A DNA stretch of 64,000 nt, taken from NCBI GenBank assembly GCA_905182295.1, contig CAJJAZ010000004.1, forward strand, positions 1 through 64,000, in the 5' to 3' direction. Made by a program: the position numbers and the translations under genes. Positions 20,097-26,100 of the stretch are shown piece after piece. The notes beneath the pieces were generated by a model that was not told the DNA's origin, did not search any database, and saw only the letters and a program-made list of their open reading frames with translations. Each line of letters begins with the position of its first letter. The first letter of the stretch is position 1. Source of the stretch: an uncultured Flavobacteriaceae bacterium (GTDB lineage: Bacteria; Bacteroidota; Bacteroidia; Flavobacteriales; Flavobacteriaceae).

Positions 20097-20152
20097 GAGA
20101 TTAAAATGTTTAATATTTTAAATAAAAAGATAAACAAATTGGATAAAAGGTG

Positions 20153-20160
20153 TAGCTTTG
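20153..20160 (+). promoter_or_regulatory. -7 element of the regulator/crt transcript
   Basis: TAGCTTTG, an exact TAnnTTTG match 21 bases before the ATG at 20182. No TTG stands at the usual -33 distance, which fits a regulated promoter. Confidence 0.5.
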
Positions 20161-20181
20161 TTTAAGTCTAAAAAACATCAA

Positions 20182-21084
20182 ATGAGTTTAGTGAAAAAGA
20201 CTTTTAGCATAAAAGATCTAGAAAACCTTTCTGGTATTAAAGCCCATACTATAAGGATTTGGGAGAAAAGATACAACCTCTTAAGTCCCGAGCGTACCCA
20301 GACAAATATCAGGTTATACAGCCTATTGAGTTTACAAAAACTCTTAAACATTTCGCTATTATATGAGAACGGACTGAAAATCTCTAAAATTGCCCAATTA
20401 AAAAATGAAGAAATCCCTCTGAAGGTTAGAGAAATTATAGACGAAAAGTCCATCAAGAACAATATGATGAATGCTTTTAAGCTATCTATGATTAATTTTG
20501 ACCAAAGCTTGTTTTACACTACTTACAACAAATTGGTTGTGGATTTAAGTTTTAGAGAAATTTTCAAAGAATATTTCATTCCATTACTTCAAGAATTGGG
20601 CTATTTATGGCAATCTAACACCATTAGTACTACCCATGAACATTTTATAACAAATCTAGTAAAACAAAAAGTATACACAAACACAGAAAAAGTGCACAGA
20701 TCTGAATATGTAGGCAACAAATCATTTGTCCTTTTTTTGCCTGAAAATGAGATTCACGAACTAGGTCTTTTATACCTCAATTATGAATTAAATCTCAGGG
20801 GGTATAAGAGTATATTCCTAGGACAAAGTGTTCCCATAGAAAACTTAGAGCCCTTAATTGCCAGTAATGAATTTGTTGAATTTATCGCTTATGTAACTGT
20901 AGAACCTTCAAAGGATAAAATCGATAAGTACCTGCGAAAATTCAAAAAGAAAATATTAGATAAAAAAAATTGTAGGCTCTCTCTTTTAGGTTTCCAAACA
21001 CAGTTTGTAGATCTAAATACAAAACCAGAAAACATAAGTATACACAGAGGTTTTGAAGAATTAATTGAAGCCTTAAATTTATAA
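20182..21084 (+). CDS. MerR-family regulator with B12-binding domain, CarH-like light sensor candidate
   Basis: 300 residues from the ATG at 20182; the track start (TTG 20158) overlaps the -7 element. Residues about 8-75 are a MerR winged HTH (FSIKDLENLSGIKAHTIRIWEKRYNLL). A helical B12-binding-2 domain then holds W143 and E153-H154, exactly the Wx9EH motif of adenosylcobalamin photoreceptors. The C-terminal Rossmann-like domain has E190-I-H192-E-L-G, the ExHxxG cobalamin motif with H192 the likely lower axial ligand. The base following the Trp is Gln, where Thermus CarH has a His. It sits just before crtI, three bases apart, so it probably represses the crt genes in the dark. Confidence 0.85.
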   Translation: MSLVKKTFSIKDLENLSGIKAHTIRIWEKRYNLLSPERTQTNIRLYSLLSLQKLLNISLLYENGLKISKIAQLKNEEIPLKVREIIDEKSIKNNMMNAFKLSMINFDQSLFYTTYNKLVVDLSFREIFKEYFIPLLQELGYLWQSNTISTTHEHFITNLVKQKVYTNTEKVHRSEYVGNKSFVLFLPENEIHELGLLYLNYELNLRGYKSIFLGQSVPIENLEPLIASNEFVEFIAYVTVEPSKDKIDKYLRKFKKKILDKKNCRLSLLGFQTQFVDLNTKPENISIHRGFEELIEALNL

Positions 21085-21087
21085 TAA

Positions 21088-22539
21088 ATGAAACAAATTA
21101 GTATTATAGGATCTGGCTTCTCTGCACTATCTGCCGCTTGCTATTTGGCAAAAGCGGGACACAATGTGGACTTATATGAAAAAAACAATACTATTGGCGG
21201 AAGGGCCAGGCAACTAAAGAGAGAAGGCTTTACTTTTGATATGGGACCAAGCTGGTACTGGATGCCTGATGTTTTTGACAAGTTTTTTGCGGATTTTGGC
21301 AAGAAAACATCAGATTACTACCAATTGGAAAAGCTTAGTCCAGCATATAAGGTGTGTTTTAACGAGGGTCATTTAACCATTGGAGACAGTTTAGAAAAAA
21401 TTATTCAAGCCTTTGAAGAAATAGAGGTGGGTAGCGGTGTTAAATTGGAGAAATTCATTGCAGAAGCCCAAGATCATTATAGAATTGCTATAGATAAAAT
21501 AGTATTGAGACCCGGTTTATCTCCTCTCGAATTGGTTACTCCTGAAACCATTACTAGGGTAGATCGCTTCTTTAGAACTATCAGCCAAAGGGTTAGAAAA
21601 GATTTTAAGAACCCTAAATTAATAGCAACACTGGAATTTCCTGTATTGTTTTTGGGTGCAAAACCAAACCAAACACCCTCTTTTTATAGCTTTATGAATT
21701 TTGCAGATTTTGGATTGGGTACTTGGCACCCTAAAGGTGGAATGTATAAAATTGTTTTGGCTATGGAAGAATTAGCCCATTCATTAGGGGTCAATATGTA
21801 CACCAATAGTCCAGTAGATAAAATAATTGTACAGGATAAAAAAGCAGTAGGGATTTCCGTAAAAGGAAAAGATATTAAGTCTGACGTTGTGCTGAGTGGT
21901 GCAGATTATCACCATTCAGAGACGCTATTAGACCCATCTTTTAGACAATACTCAGAAGCCTATTGGGAAAAGAAAATTTTTGCCCCTTCTTCTTTGCTAT
22001 TTTACGTAGGATTCAATGAGAGAATCCCAAATGTAGAGCACCACAACCTATTCTTTGATAGTGATTTTACAAAACATGCAGAAGAAATATACGACAATGC
22101 TGTTTGGCCATCTGATCCATTATTTTATGCTAATTTCCCCTCTATTTCTGACCCCTCTATGGCTCCAGAGAATTGTGAGACAGGTTTTTTCTTGATTCCA
22201 ATTGCTCCAGACTTGGAAGACAATGAATCTTTAAGAGAAAAATATTTTGAAAAAATCATGGACAGGTTTGAATTTAAAATAGGAAAAAGCGTTCGTGAAA
22301 ATATTATCTTTAAAGAATCTTTTTGCGTGAAAGACTTTAAAGAAACTTATAACTCTTACAAAGGAAATGCCTACGGAATGGCTAATACTTTAATGCAAAC
22401 TGCTTTTTTAAGGCCAAAATTAAAAAGTAGTAGGGTACGAAATTTATATTTCACAGGCCAACTTACAGTTCCAGGACCAGGTGTTCCTCCAGCGCTTATT
22501 TCCGGTAAAATTGTAGCAGACCTTATTTCAAAAAAATAA
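21088..22539 (+). CDS. crtI: Phytoene desaturase
   Basis: Converts phytoene to lycopene by successive desaturations, on the membrane, using FAD. The N-terminal dinucleotide motif ISIIGSGFSALSAACYLAKAG has a Ser-Ala where the third Gly often lies, followed by IGGRARQLKREGFTFDMGPSW; the C-terminal FAD motif is GQLTVPGPGVPPALISGK. 483 residues. It is the first structural gene of the cluster, three bases after the regulator and five bases before crtB. Confidence 0.93.
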   Translation: MKQISIIGSGFSALSAACYLAKAGHNVDLYEKNNTIGGRARQLKREGFTFDMGPSWYWMPDVFDKFFADFGKKTSDYYQLEKLSPAYKVCFNEGHLTIGDSLEKIIQAFEEIEVGSGVKLEKFIAEAQDHYRIAIDKIVLRPGLSPLELVTPETITRVDRFFRTISQRVRKDFKNPKLIATLEFPVLFLGAKPNQTPSFYSFMNFADFGLGTWHPKGGMYKIVLAMEELAHSLGVNMYTNSPVDKIIVQDKKAVGISVKGKDIKSDVVLSGADYHHSETLLDPSFRQYSEAYWEKKIFAPSSLLFYVGFNERIPNVEHHNLFFDSDFTKHAEEIYDNAVWPSDPLFYANFPSISDPSMAPENCETGFFLIPIAPDLEDNESLREKYFEKIMDRFEFKIGKSVRENIIFKESFCVKDFKETYNSYKGNAYGMANTLMQTAFLRPKLKSSRVRNLYFTGQLTVPGPGVPPALISGKIVADLISKK

Positions 22540-22544
22540 TACGG

Positions 22545-23396
22545 ATGAAAAGCCTATTTGATCAAGTTTCATATAGATGCAGTAAGCAAGTTACTGAATC
22601 ATACAGCACCTCATTTTCTCTGGCGACAAAAATGCTAGATATTAGCATAAGGCAAGACATATATAATATATATGGCTTTGTGCGGTTTGCAGACGAAATT
22701 GTAGATAGTTTTCATGATTATGACAAAGCTTTACTGTTTGAAAGGTTTGAAAATGATTTAGCGAATGCGCTCCGTGACAAGATTAGTCTAAACCCTATTT
22801 TAAATGCTTTCCAACATTCATTCCATAAATATGAAATTCCTATAGAACTGGTCACGGCCTTTATGAAAAGTATGAAAATGGATTTGACTAAAGAGGCTTA
22901 TATTACAGAAGAGGAATACAAAGAGTACATCTATGGATCTGCAGATGTTGTTGGACTCATGTGTCTAAAAGTTTTTGTCAAAGGCAACATTGTACAATAC
23001 AACGATTTAAAAGAGGCCGCCATGTCACTAGGATCTGCCTTTCAAAAGGTAAACTTTCTTAGAGATCTCAAAGCAGATTTTGAGGGACTCAATAGAACCT
23101 ACTTTCCAAACACAAACCTAAATGCCTTAGATGAAGAGGCCAAGGCAAGAATCATTGAAGAAATACAAGAAGACTTTTCAAATGGATTGGCGGGAATAGT
23201 TTTGCTTCCTAAAGAAGTTAAATTTGGGGTATATACCGCCTACATATATTATTATAAATTACTTAAGAAATTGAAGAAGACGCCGCCACTAGAAATTAAA
23301 AACAGTAGAATTAGGGTGACCAATCATCAAAAGATGGGTCTGTTGGTAAAGTCTTATTTGAGTTGTAAATTTAACTTAGTTATTAAACCTTCATAA
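22545..23396 (+). CDS. crtB: Phytoene synthase
   Basis: Head-to-head condensation of two GGPP to phytoene. The two aspartate-rich motifs are FADEIVDSFHD (first) and RDLKADFEG (second), with the FLRDLKAD and NRTYFP segments of the family. 283 residues. Follows crtI by five bases. The GGPP substrate must come from a synthase elsewhere in the genome. Confidence 0.94.
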   Translation: MKSLFDQVSYRCSKQVTESYSTSFSLATKMLDISIRQDIYNIYGFVRFADEIVDSFHDYDKALLFERFENDLANALRDKISLNPILNAFQHSFHKYEIPIELVTAFMKSMKMDLTKEAYITEEEYKEYIYGSADVVGLMCLKVFVKGNIVQYNDLKEAAMSLGSAFQKVNFLRDLKADFEGLNRTYFPNTNLNALDEEAKARIIEEIQEDFSNGLAGIVLLPKEVKFGVYTAYIYYYKLLKKLKKTPPLEIKNSRIRVTNHQKMGLLVKSYLSCKFNLVIKPS

Positions 23397-23405
23397 ATAA
23401 AAAAA

Positions 23406-23852
23406 ATGCATCTATTTTATTGGGCTTTATGCTTTGCTGCTACATTTTGTATCATGGAATTCATGGCTTGGTTCTCGCATAAATATATTATGCATGGATT
23501 TTTATGGCGCTTACATGAAGACCATCATAAAAAAGACCACGACAGTTGGTTCGAAAGAAATGACGCTTTCTTTATTTTCTATGCTGTCATTAGTATGGGT
23601 TTTATAATGACGGCAGAAAATACCTCTTTTTGGCAAGGATGGCCCATTGGATTGGGTATTATGGCTTATGGCTTTACTTATTTCATAGTTCATGACATCT
23701 TTATACACCAACGTTTTAAATGGTTTAGAAACGCCAATAACAAATACGCAAAAGGAATTAGAAGGGCTCATAAAATGCATCACAAACATTTAAGCAAAGA
23801 AGATGGAGAGTGCTTTGGAATGTTATTTATTCCCTTTAAATATTTCAAATAA
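23406..23852 (+). CDS. crtZ: Beta-carotene hydroxylase (CrtZ, fatty-acid hydroxylase type)
   Basis: Membrane di-iron hydroxylase adding 3-OH to beta-ionone rings. It has all the histidine boxes, HKYIMH, HEDHHK, HDIFIHQR and HKMHHKH, and four hydrophobic helices in 148 residues. Its stop codon TAA overlaps the next ATG as TAATG, a coupled junction. Confidence 0.93.
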   Translation: MHLFYWALCFAATFCIMEFMAWFSHKYIMHGFLWRLHEDHHKKDHDSWFERNDAFFIFYAVISMGFIMTAENTSFWQGWPIGLGIMAYGFTYFIVHDIFIHQRFKWFRNANNKYAKGIRRAHKMHHKHLSKEDGECFGMLFIPFKYFK

Positions 23853-25330
23853 TGCAAAAAAAAGCTATAGTTATTGGCGCAGGAATTGCTGGTTTAGCTT
23901 GTAGCTTAAGATTACAAAAAAAAGGCTATAAGGTCACTGTTGTTGAGAGAAACAGCTATACTGGAGGTAAAATGCATGTGCTGAAACAGCATGGGTACAG
24001 GTTTGATCTAGGCCCATCTTTATTTACCATGCCAGAGTTAGTAGCATCGCTCTTCAAACTTCATAATACTCCTTTAGAAAAATATTTCTCTTACAAAAAG
24101 AAAGACATTATATGTCACTATTTTTGGCCAGATGGCAGCTTTTTTAAGGCATCGGCGGAGCCAGAGGAATGGATAAAAGAAGCGGCTGATTTTTTTGGAG
24201 AATCCTCTGAAATTTTGAGAAGCTATTTAGATAATAGTGCTAGAAAATATGCGCTCACTGCCCCTATCTTTTTAGAGAAATCATTGGCTGATTGGAAAAC
24301 ATACTTAAGCACAAATACACTAAAAGCTATTTTTAATCTGGGTACTTTAAATATCTTTAATACCCTTGACAAACACCATAAAGATATATTTAAAAACAAA
24401 AAGCTCATTCAATACTTCAACAGGTTTGCCACCTACAACGGCTCCTCTCCTTACAAGACTTCTGCAATCATGAGTATGATTCCTCATTTAGAAATGCATA
24501 AGGGCACCTATTTTCCAACAGAAGGCATGCATTCGATAGGACAATCGCTTTATCAATTAGCCAAAGATAAAGGTGTTCATTTTTTACTTTCAACCCCAGT
24601 GCTTAAAATTAATGTAGAAAACAATAGTGCAAAAGGCATAGAAATAGTTGTAAATGGAGCAACCCAATACTTAGAAGCAGACATAGTAGTTTCAAATGCA
24701 GACGTATTTCACACCTATGAAAAACTGCTCCCAACCATTCAAACACCTAAGAGAATTGTTCAAGAGGAAAGATCGAGTTCTGGACTCATATTCTATTGGG
24801 GTATTTCTACCTCTTTTTCTTCATTAGACCTCCATAATATTTTTTTTAGTGAAGACTACCATACCGAATTCAAAGAAATTTTTGACAAACAGACCTTACC
24901 TACTGATCCAACCATATATATAAACATCAGCTCCAAAGAAAAACCATCAGATGCCCCTAAAGGTTGTGAAAATTGGTTTGTCATGGTTAACGCACCAGCC
25001 AATCAAGGCCAAGACTGGGAGGATTTAAAGCAAAAAATGAAACAAACAATTGTCAGAAAATTATCAGATCAACTGGGTGTTAATATAGCTGACTACATCG
25101 TATATGAAGAAATTTTAGACCCAATTGGTATAGAAAAAAATACCAGTGCATACCAAGGAGCCCTTTACGGCACTTCTAGTAATGACCCCAAAGCGGCATT
25201 TTTAAGACAATCAAATAAAAGTCATATTGAGAATTTATATTTTTGCGGTGGATCTGCACATCCTGGAGGTGGGATTCCGCTGTGTCTCCACAGTGCCAAA
25301 ATTACAGCAGATCTAATTCCGGCGCTTTAG
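23852..25330 (+). CDS. crtD: CrtI-family carotenoid desaturase, CrtD-like
   Basis: 492 residues, a second desaturase paralogous to crtI. The FAD motif is AIVIGAGIAGLACSLRLQKKG followed by TGGKMHVLKQHGYRFDLGPS; the C-terminal motif is GGSAHPGGGIPLCLHSAK. In saproxanthin/myxol-type flavobacterial clusters the second desaturase beside cruF is CrtD, which introduces the 3',4' double bond in the acyclic end group; that role fits the cruF neighbour. Sequence alone does not exclude other desaturase specificities. Confidence 0.75.
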   Translation: MQKKAIVIGAGIAGLACSLRLQKKGYKVTVVERNSYTGGKMHVLKQHGYRFDLGPSLFTMPELVASLFKLHNTPLEKYFSYKKKDIICHYFWPDGSFFKASAEPEEWIKEAADFFGESSEILRSYLDNSARKYALTAPIFLEKSLADWKTYLSTNTLKAIFNLGTLNIFNTLDKHHKDIFKNKKLIQYFNRFATYNGSSPYKTSAIMSMIPHLEMHKGTYFPTEGMHSIGQSLYQLAKDKGVHFLLSTPVLKINVENNSAKGIEIVVNGATQYLEADIVVSNADVFHTYEKLLPTIQTPKRIVQEERSSSGLIFYWGISTSFSSLDLHNIFFSEDYHTEFKEIFDKQTLPTDPTIYINISSKEKPSDAPKGCENWFVMVNAPANQGQDWEDLKQKMKQTIVRKLSDQLGVNIADYIVYEEILDPIGIEKNTSAYQGALYGTSSNDPKAAFLRQSNKSHIENLYFCGGSAHPGGGIPLCLHSAKITADLIPAL

Positions 25331-25449
25331 TAAATGCCTAAAAATAAATGACCTAAAATTCCATATTTAAATTTAACTGAATATAATATCATTGAATTAA
25401 CTACCCTTAAAAAAAAGCCTTTAACAGATGTTAAGGCGACAAAAATTAC

Positions 25450-26100
25450 ATGAAAAAGACTACTGCCAGACAAATTGAACCGAAAACAAGTTTTGCTATT
25501 GGATTGATTTGGCTATTCAATATTACTGCAATCATAGGCATTGGTCTGGGATTTCAAGAGTGGTTTATTGAGAAAACATATGTAAATATGCTTCTTTACA
25601 CCGTTTTTTTAATCGCCTTATTTCCAGTAAATACATCTAGAAATATCTTTCTTTTCACCATAGCATGTCTAATCGGCATGTCTAGTGAATGGATAGGTGT
25701 GCATACCTCTTGGCTATTCGGCAGCTATTACTACGGAGAAAATTTAGGTATTAAATTAGGGGGAGTGCCGCTACTTATTGGTGTAAATTGGGCAGTACTT
25801 AGTCTAATCTCGGCAGATCTTGTAAAAAAATTAAACACCTCTAAATACTATAAAGCACTACTTGCTGCAAGTCTCATGGTGGGCTTAGACCTATTAATGG
25901 AATACGCAGCGCCTTCGCTAGACTTTTGGTACTTTGACGGAGAAATAGTTCCAATAAAAAACTACCTAAGCTGGTTTGCGGTGGCTTTTATAATTCAGCG
26001 CATCATAAACGACAGCTACACCGATGGAAATCGAAAGTATTCGTTGCACCTACTACTGAGCCAGTACGCTTTTTTTACCGCTTATTTATTGCTTCAATAA
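25450..26100 (+). CDS. cruF: CruF-like carotenoid 1',2'-hydratase (DUF422)
   Basis: 216 residues, a multi-pass membrane protein with at least six hydrophobic helices. The segment EWIGVHTSWLFGSYYYGENLGIKLGGVPLLIGVNWAVL is the hallmark of the CruF/DUF422 family, and the ASLMVGLDLLMEYAAPSLDFWYF segment holds its conserved acidic residues. CruF adds water across the 1',2' double bond of the acyclic psi-end of gamma-carotene. It sits 119 bases after crtD. Its last 15 bases overlap the convergent thioredoxin-fold gene. Confidence 0.88.
   Translation: MKKTTARQIEPKTSFAIGLIWLFNITAIIGIGLGFQEWFIEKTYVNMLLYTVFLIALFPVNTSRNIFLFTIACLIGMSSEWIGVHTSWLFGSYYYGENLGIKLGGVPLLIGVNWAVLSLISADLVKKLNTSKYYKALLAASLMVGLDLLMEYAAPSLDFWYFDGEIVPIKNYLSWFAVAFIIQRIINDSYTDGNRKYSLHLLLSQYAFFTAYLLLQ

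Follow-up and report, generated by a model that had tools for sequence, protein, structure and literature searches.

What sets the carotenoid (crt) genes of a flavobacterium in motion, and could coenzyme B12 relay a light signal to them? The question is raised by a stretch of 64,000 nucleotides from an uncultured Flavobacteriaceae bacterium (contig CAJJAZ010000004.1 of assembly GCA_905182295.1, positions 1-64,000 of the forward strand), hereafter the window, where a crt cluster opens with the gene of a regulator of 300 residues counted from its ATG (20182..21084, + strand). The protein combines a MerR helix-turn-helix (HTH), a four-helix cap and a diverged Rossmann domain, and three bases separate its stop codon (21084) from the ATG of crtI (21088). 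A preliminary description of this DNA had placed the two genes in this way; it had also listed a MerR HTH, W143, E153-H154, H192 within ExHxxG and Gln144, all of which are present, and had proposed that B12 and light control the crt genes. The latter proposal stands in so far as the regulator is CarH-like and very probably a photoreceptor using adenosylcobalamin (AdoCbl), as argued by its fold, motif conservation, synteny, operator conservation, AdoCbl supply and co-occurrence with an adenosyltransferase, but strict CarH membership has to be given up. We consider it likely that the protein is an AdoCbl-dependent autorepressor of the crt genes, released by light.

The HTH covers residues 8-75 (Pfam MerR_1, 3.6e-13), with a recognition helix, RIWEKRY, that follows the pattern RxWE(R/K)RY. 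Pfam places a B12-binding_2 cap at residues 98-164 (1.5e-8), within a four-helix unit carrying GxxW and Wx9EH (97-172), and the diverged Rossmann domain with its ExHxxG motif extends over residues 180-298. A genome scan for relatives returned 80 Flavobacteriaceae loci, 53-63% identical, and conservation was scored on an alignment of 81 rows. There, residues 25-31 of the recognition helix are invariant, as are the ligand-facing G140, W143, E153, H154, E190, H192, G195 and G214. Both the adenosyl contacts of Wx9EH (W143, E153, H154) and the lower-ligand motif ExHxxG (E190, H192, G195) belong to this set, so that neither motif is a chance match. Column identity averages 0.86 in the HTH and 0.80 in the cap; within the Rossmann domain it drops from 0.75 over the first half to 0.52 over the second. 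As a check on the assignment, the preliminary description had suggested structure prediction and alignment to CarH. An AlphaFold2 model built from 42 aligned relatives (mean predicted local distance difference test score, pLDDT, 91; predicted template modelling score, pTM, 0.83) combines the cap with a Rossmann-like alpha/beta domain, most blocks of which exceed a pLDDT of 90, that is, the CarH fold. Its best match in the Protein Data Bank, found with Foldseek, is full-length Thermus thermophilus CarH (5C8D, E 2e-14), with CtMerR and SasPcob coming next, and its cobalamin domain superimposes on 8C73 with a template modelling (TM) score of 0.83 and a root-mean-square deviation of 3.0. Sequence comparison points to Thermus CarH/LitR as the closest proteins of solved structure (3WHP, 5C8D; 3e-13), the match covering residues 7-226 only.

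This regulator is not a peculiarity of one genome. In one sample of 121 Flavobacteriaceae genera, 106 gave a match (each with E <=7e-42), and of the 80 named loci 79 have a crt gene directly after the regulator (78 with crtI, one with crtB). The locus of Robertkochia solimangrovi (L048) keeps the regulator and its promoter element, with no crt gene within 8 kb.

The promoter element in question, TAnnTTTGTTTAA, is near-invariant and common to the regions upstream of the regulator genes; it consists of TAnnTTTG, which we take to be the -7 box of Bacteroidota, followed by TTTAA. In the window it reads TAGCTTTGTTTAA (20153..20165, + strand), the -7 box TAnnTTTG being fused to TTTAA and its TA lying 29 bp before the ATG at 20182. 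Because an alternative in-frame TTG (20158) falls inside this element, the ATG is the likely start. Over 81 upstream regions of 60 bp, TTTGTTTA occurs in 77 (the mean in shuffled sequences is 2), while TAnnTTTGTTTA is found at most 60 bp from the start in 72, against 0.25 expected in shuffles; the first base of TTTG lies 25 bp ahead of the ATG in 67 of 80 rows. Of 75 regulator cases, 67 have TTTA after the -7 box, compared with 7 of 194 other genes of the same loci, and these seven are six crtI genes with a gap of their own after the regulator and one crtY divergent from it. A distant relative (L096) has the element before both regulator and crtI, and a few additional copies lie away from any gene start. 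TAnnTTTGTTTA is absent from paralogue loci of the same genus (L107-L110), and neither a conserved -33 TTG box nor a conserved spacing of further half-sites was found in the upstream regions. Two possible extra half-sites of the window, TGTTTA (20107-20112) and an inverted TAAACA (20131-20136), which together span 20107..20136 with no strand assigned, are clearly shared only with a genome of the same genus (G292). An autorepressor with its operator lying over its own promoter would leave a pattern of this kind, and TTTGTTTAA is the putative operator that the regulator would bind.

Is the coenzyme at hand? The genome to which the window belongs, 61% complete, codes for a PduO-type adenosyltransferase, a methylmalonyl-CoA mutase and a MetH-like protein of 1246 residues. 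The host is thus equipped to produce AdoCbl and to use it, provided that it has a source of corrinoid, and the idea of a host devoid of AdoCbl was rejected. Adenosyltransferases of the BtuR type (PF02572) were found in none of 10 genomes, and no cobalamin riboswitch was found in the window, where Rfam recognizes two tRNAs only. Co-occurrence was explored in 399 Flavobacteriaceae genomes, 35 of which lack methylmalonyl-CoA mutase (E 1e-100); removal of two with a class II ribonucleotide reductase (NrdJ) left 33, these two enzymes being the AdoCbl enzymes that the search covered. These 33 genomes are related and some of them incomplete; 17 have the regulator, 15 of them together with the adenosyltransferase, and of the 16 without the regulator 4 have that enzyme. 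The association gives a Fisher p of 0.0003 by genome and 0.008 by genus, in a test devised after a first look at eight genomes (3/4 versus 0/4), all contained in the 33, and with a genus count that omits the incomplete G216 and scores the mixed genus g59 as having the regulator without the enzyme. A side observation concerns three genomes (G155, G197 and G327) with an adenosyltransferase and without regulator, methylmalonyl-CoA mutase or NrdJ, in which another user of AdoCbl is expected.

As for light, two genomes of the same genus as the window (G142 and G397), both without a close orthologue, hold a second copy of the regulator, 37% identical, within a photolyase cluster (L108, 3739-9999, where the last gene runs off the fetched stretch, and L109, 6506-11662, whose genes were assigned only from similarity and position). 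This cluster comprises genes for a photolyase, an SDR protein, an SRPBCC protein, a flavin reductase, QueD and FolE, and a second photolyase-domain gene. The light regulon of the class II LitR of Pseudomonas includes photolyase and FolE (PMC9758184), and by this resemblance the paralogue supports light as the signal of the family, while being no proof for the window gene. Light-induced Chryseobacterium lacus was considered as further support and rejected, its authors having found no car or lit genes (PMC7064467).

The preliminary description had remarked that Gln replaces the His that follows the Trp in Thermus CarH, so that the photochemistry could differ. Gln144 is indeed there, but it is not peculiar to the window: in 82 aligned rows this residue is Gln in 78, His in 3 (Kordia) and Leu in 1, which rules out a local oddity, and the photocobilin SasPcob has Gln as well (PMC11796333). 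Gln and His interconvert within the clade; the tree nests a Kordia His row among Gln rows, and the crtI-adjacent copy of G142 has His after the Trp. In a second and more distant clade the place is taken by Gly, Thr or Ser. Among characterized cobalamin photoreceptors, His after Trp is not universal (PMC11796333), and SasPcob, with its Gln, responds to light, its light state having water- or hydroxide-ligated cobalt rather than a bis-His arrangement (PMC10979010, PMC11796333). Gln is therefore no argument against light sensing. Judged from this analogue, a bis-His light state of the Thermus kind is unlikely, and since Gln stands in the place of Thermus His132 the light state would probably be water- or hydroxide-ligated, as in SasPcob.

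A number of observations weigh against reading the regulator as a light-released, AdoCbl-dependent autorepressor. Its Rossmann domain has no match to the Pfam B12-binding model PF02310, and the CarH equivalog, although the top NCBIfam match, scores 69.6 bits for a cut-off of 400. The Arg and Asp that form the salt bridge of the Thermus CarH dimer align with Ile191 and Ser216, which leaves no salt bridge. An Arg-Asp pair of this kind is held in the dimer interface of Thermus CarH (PMC9304148). The light signature of SignatureFinder comprises GxxW, EH, GxxH and GxxxP (PMC11796333); here GYLW, EH and GQSVP are found, and GxxH is replaced by NEIH, with Asn in 79 of 82 rows. The H132A variant of Thermus CarH stays mostly tetrameric in the light, contrary to an earlier report cited in the same work (PMC10442372), so that a residue other than His could impair release. 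Two genomes of one genus (G058 and G242) keep the regulator without the adenosyltransferase; in their proteins (loci L058 and L113) the signature proline on the adenosyl side has become Ser (P218S), a change otherwise seen only in L057, and a sister genome with the adenosyltransferase (G360) retains P218. Finally, that the protein would repress rather than activate is presumed by analogy. The most telling departure lies in the tail of the B12 motif. CarH is defined by Wx9EH plus the full ExHx2Gx41SxV/Tx22-27GG motif (PMC8156234, PMC9304148). Where this calls for SxV/T and GG, the window reads AYV and GF, with about ten more residues between the two positions than in CarH; SYF prevails in the clade, and after the G stands Arg, His, Tyr, Lys or Gln, whereas the Thermus CarH sequence compared here (L116) has SVL and GG. 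Wx9EH had been taken as diagnostic by itself, a claim that does not survive, as CarH requires the full B12 motif too (PMC8156234). With the second half of that motif missing, strict membership fails, and on its sequence the regulator is best called a CarH-like variant.

Do these departures betray a protein that has lost its B12? The control could be independent of B12, as in Myxococcus CarA or in Pseudomonas class II LitR, the cobalamin domain serving as a scaffold while another protein or signal inactivates the regulator. The missing SxV/T and GG, the unmatched PF02310 and the two genomes without adenosyltransferase would fit, and class II LitR, which keeps the four-helix bundle only, does answer to a LOV protein (PMC9758184). 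Moreover, one subclade (L097, L098, L101 and L102), still placed before crtI, has turned the EH of Wx9EH into ER or ES, and from its sequence it may represent a possible B12-independent branch. However, none of the 81 rows departs from the Trp, Glu and His of Wx9EH or from the axial His, whereas CarA has no such Trp (PMC9304148) and class II LitR has no counterpart of the Rossmann domain that is confidently predicted here, and the adenosyltransferase tracks the regulator; we hold this explanation to be unlikely. Decay of the B12 domain was likewise rejected as a whole, given the invariant ligand-facing residues, even though the tail pocket has changed. This pocket looks rebuilt rather than decayed: in place of SxV/T and GG it has Y237, T239, P242 and G270, which do not vary across the clade although they belong to the least conserved stretch of the protein, on the tail side of the Rossmann domain.

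A rebuilt pocket might have been fashioned for a corrinoid other than ordinary AdoCbl, with a different lower base, or for an incomplete, tail-less adenosyl-corrinoid. The change is family-wide and kept, as the four invariant residues amid a mean identity of 0.52 indicate, but the altered pocket may still admit a dimethylbenzimidazole (DMB) tail, and the mutase and MetH-like protein of the host look ordinary, which makes such a preference very improbable. A bolder combination, a family-wide branch of B12 photoreceptors with rebuilt tail pocket, a lower base that is different or irrelevant and a Gln-based light state other than bis-His, appears decidedly unlikely as a whole. The same domains would also serve a sensor of B12 status that ignores light and matches carotenoid synthesis to corrinoid supply. 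This we find hardly credible, for the adenosyl-contact residues are conserved as in photoreceptors, the target genes are photoprotective and a paralogue sits in a photolyase cluster.

Under the preferred reading of an AdoCbl-dependent autorepressor, AdoCbl would be held in the dark between the cap (W143, E153, H154) and the Rossmann domain, with H192 as lower ligand, and the oligomer that it promotes would bind DNA over the -7 box and start region of the regulator's own promoter (TAnnTTTGTTTAA). Transcription of the regulator, crtI, crtB, crtZ and crtD would thus be off, and that of cruF too if it is co-transcribed. Light would break the Co-C bond; the adenosyl group would leave, the oligomer loosen and the DNA be released, allowing transcription of the genes for the carotenoids, which are protective yellow-orange pigments. 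With CarH/class I LitR (T. thermophilus 5C8D, Myxococcus xanthus, Bacillus megaterium) the regulator shares the MerR HTH, the Wx9EH cap, ExHxxG, the fold and the link with crt genes; it departs from them in having Gln for His132 and no SxV/T, GG or Arg-Asp bridge, and the Foldseek alignment gives 19% identity. SasPcob (Saccharothrix syringae, 8J2W/8J2X) has the Gln after Trp and the cobalamin-domain fold in common with it, but lacks a DNA-binding domain and ends in a globin domain that binds bilin. Another cobalamin photoreceptor of the MerR type, CtMerR (Chloracidobacterium thermophilum, 8JBS/8JBT), likewise has no His at position 132; it has Arg there, and its Rossmann details are different. 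Class II LitR (PplR1, PmlR2) shares MerR and the four-helix bundle and controls light genes that include photolyase and FolE, yet it has no Rossmann domain and is under the control of a LOV protein (PMC9758184).

Homologues of CarH are described as widespread (PMC8156234). A MerR gene has been noted ahead of or together with crt genes in Nonlabens, Flavobacterium TH167 and Sediminicola (PMC11855829, PMC5887021, PMC4732338), but it was not identified as a receptor of B12 or light. We found no study of a flavobacterial CarH in the literature searched, subscription papers being outside that search, and the regulators are probably a distinct branch of photoreceptors of the CarH kind, with an altered B12 pocket and no earlier study found. 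If so, B12 supply and light would jointly set the synthesis of carotenoids, and possibly of retinal precursors, across most Flavobacteriaceae, an abundant marine family often endowed with proteorhodopsin, and the three papers just cited would gain a mechanism. The family further provides a candidate operator sequence and, at the place of His132, natural variants with Gln, His, Leu, Gly, Thr and Ser. It may also explain why an adenosyltransferase persists in some small genomes that have neither methylmalonyl-CoA mutase nor a class II ribonucleotide reductase.

The genes downstream of the regulator, all on the + strand, make up the rest of the carotenoid cluster. The phytoene desaturase gene crtI (21088..22539; NCBIfam NF058655, 706 bits, above the cut-off of 640) is followed by crtB, for phytoene synthase (22545..23396; Pfam SQS_PSY, 4e-47), by a crtZ-like carotene hydroxylase gene (23406..23852) and by crtD, for a 1-hydroxycarotenoid 3,4-desaturase (23852..25330; NCBIfam NF042421, 696 bits, above the cut-off of 500). 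The crtZ-like product has no Pfam model above cut-off and no NCBIfam match, and is assigned from its histidine motifs (HKxxMHG, HxxHH, HKMHHK), its position and homologous clusters, in which its counterparts sit between crtB and crtD. After a gap of 119 bp comes a cruF-like carotenoid 1,2-hydratase gene (25450..26100; Pfam Caroten_synth, 4.6e-25, under the NCBIfam CruF cut-off). No lycopene cyclase gene was found in this crt cluster.

Elsewhere in the sample, loci L085-L093 form the second, more distant MerR-B12 clade, with Gly, Thr or Ser after the Trp. Most of them lie near crtI in opposite orientation, with a lipoprotein-like, fasciclin-like gene in between where this was read; in L085 and L086 the regulator is directly upstream of crtI, and L093 has no crt gene in the fetched stretch. 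Clearly flavobacterial crt loci occur in two metagenome bins (L059 and L073) whose species labels, Klebsiella pneumoniae and Bifidobacterium breve, look wrong. Finally, the regulator often comes right after a tRNA-Leu-like gene, as in L002, L019 and various other loci, a neighbourhood that probably reflects conserved gene order only.

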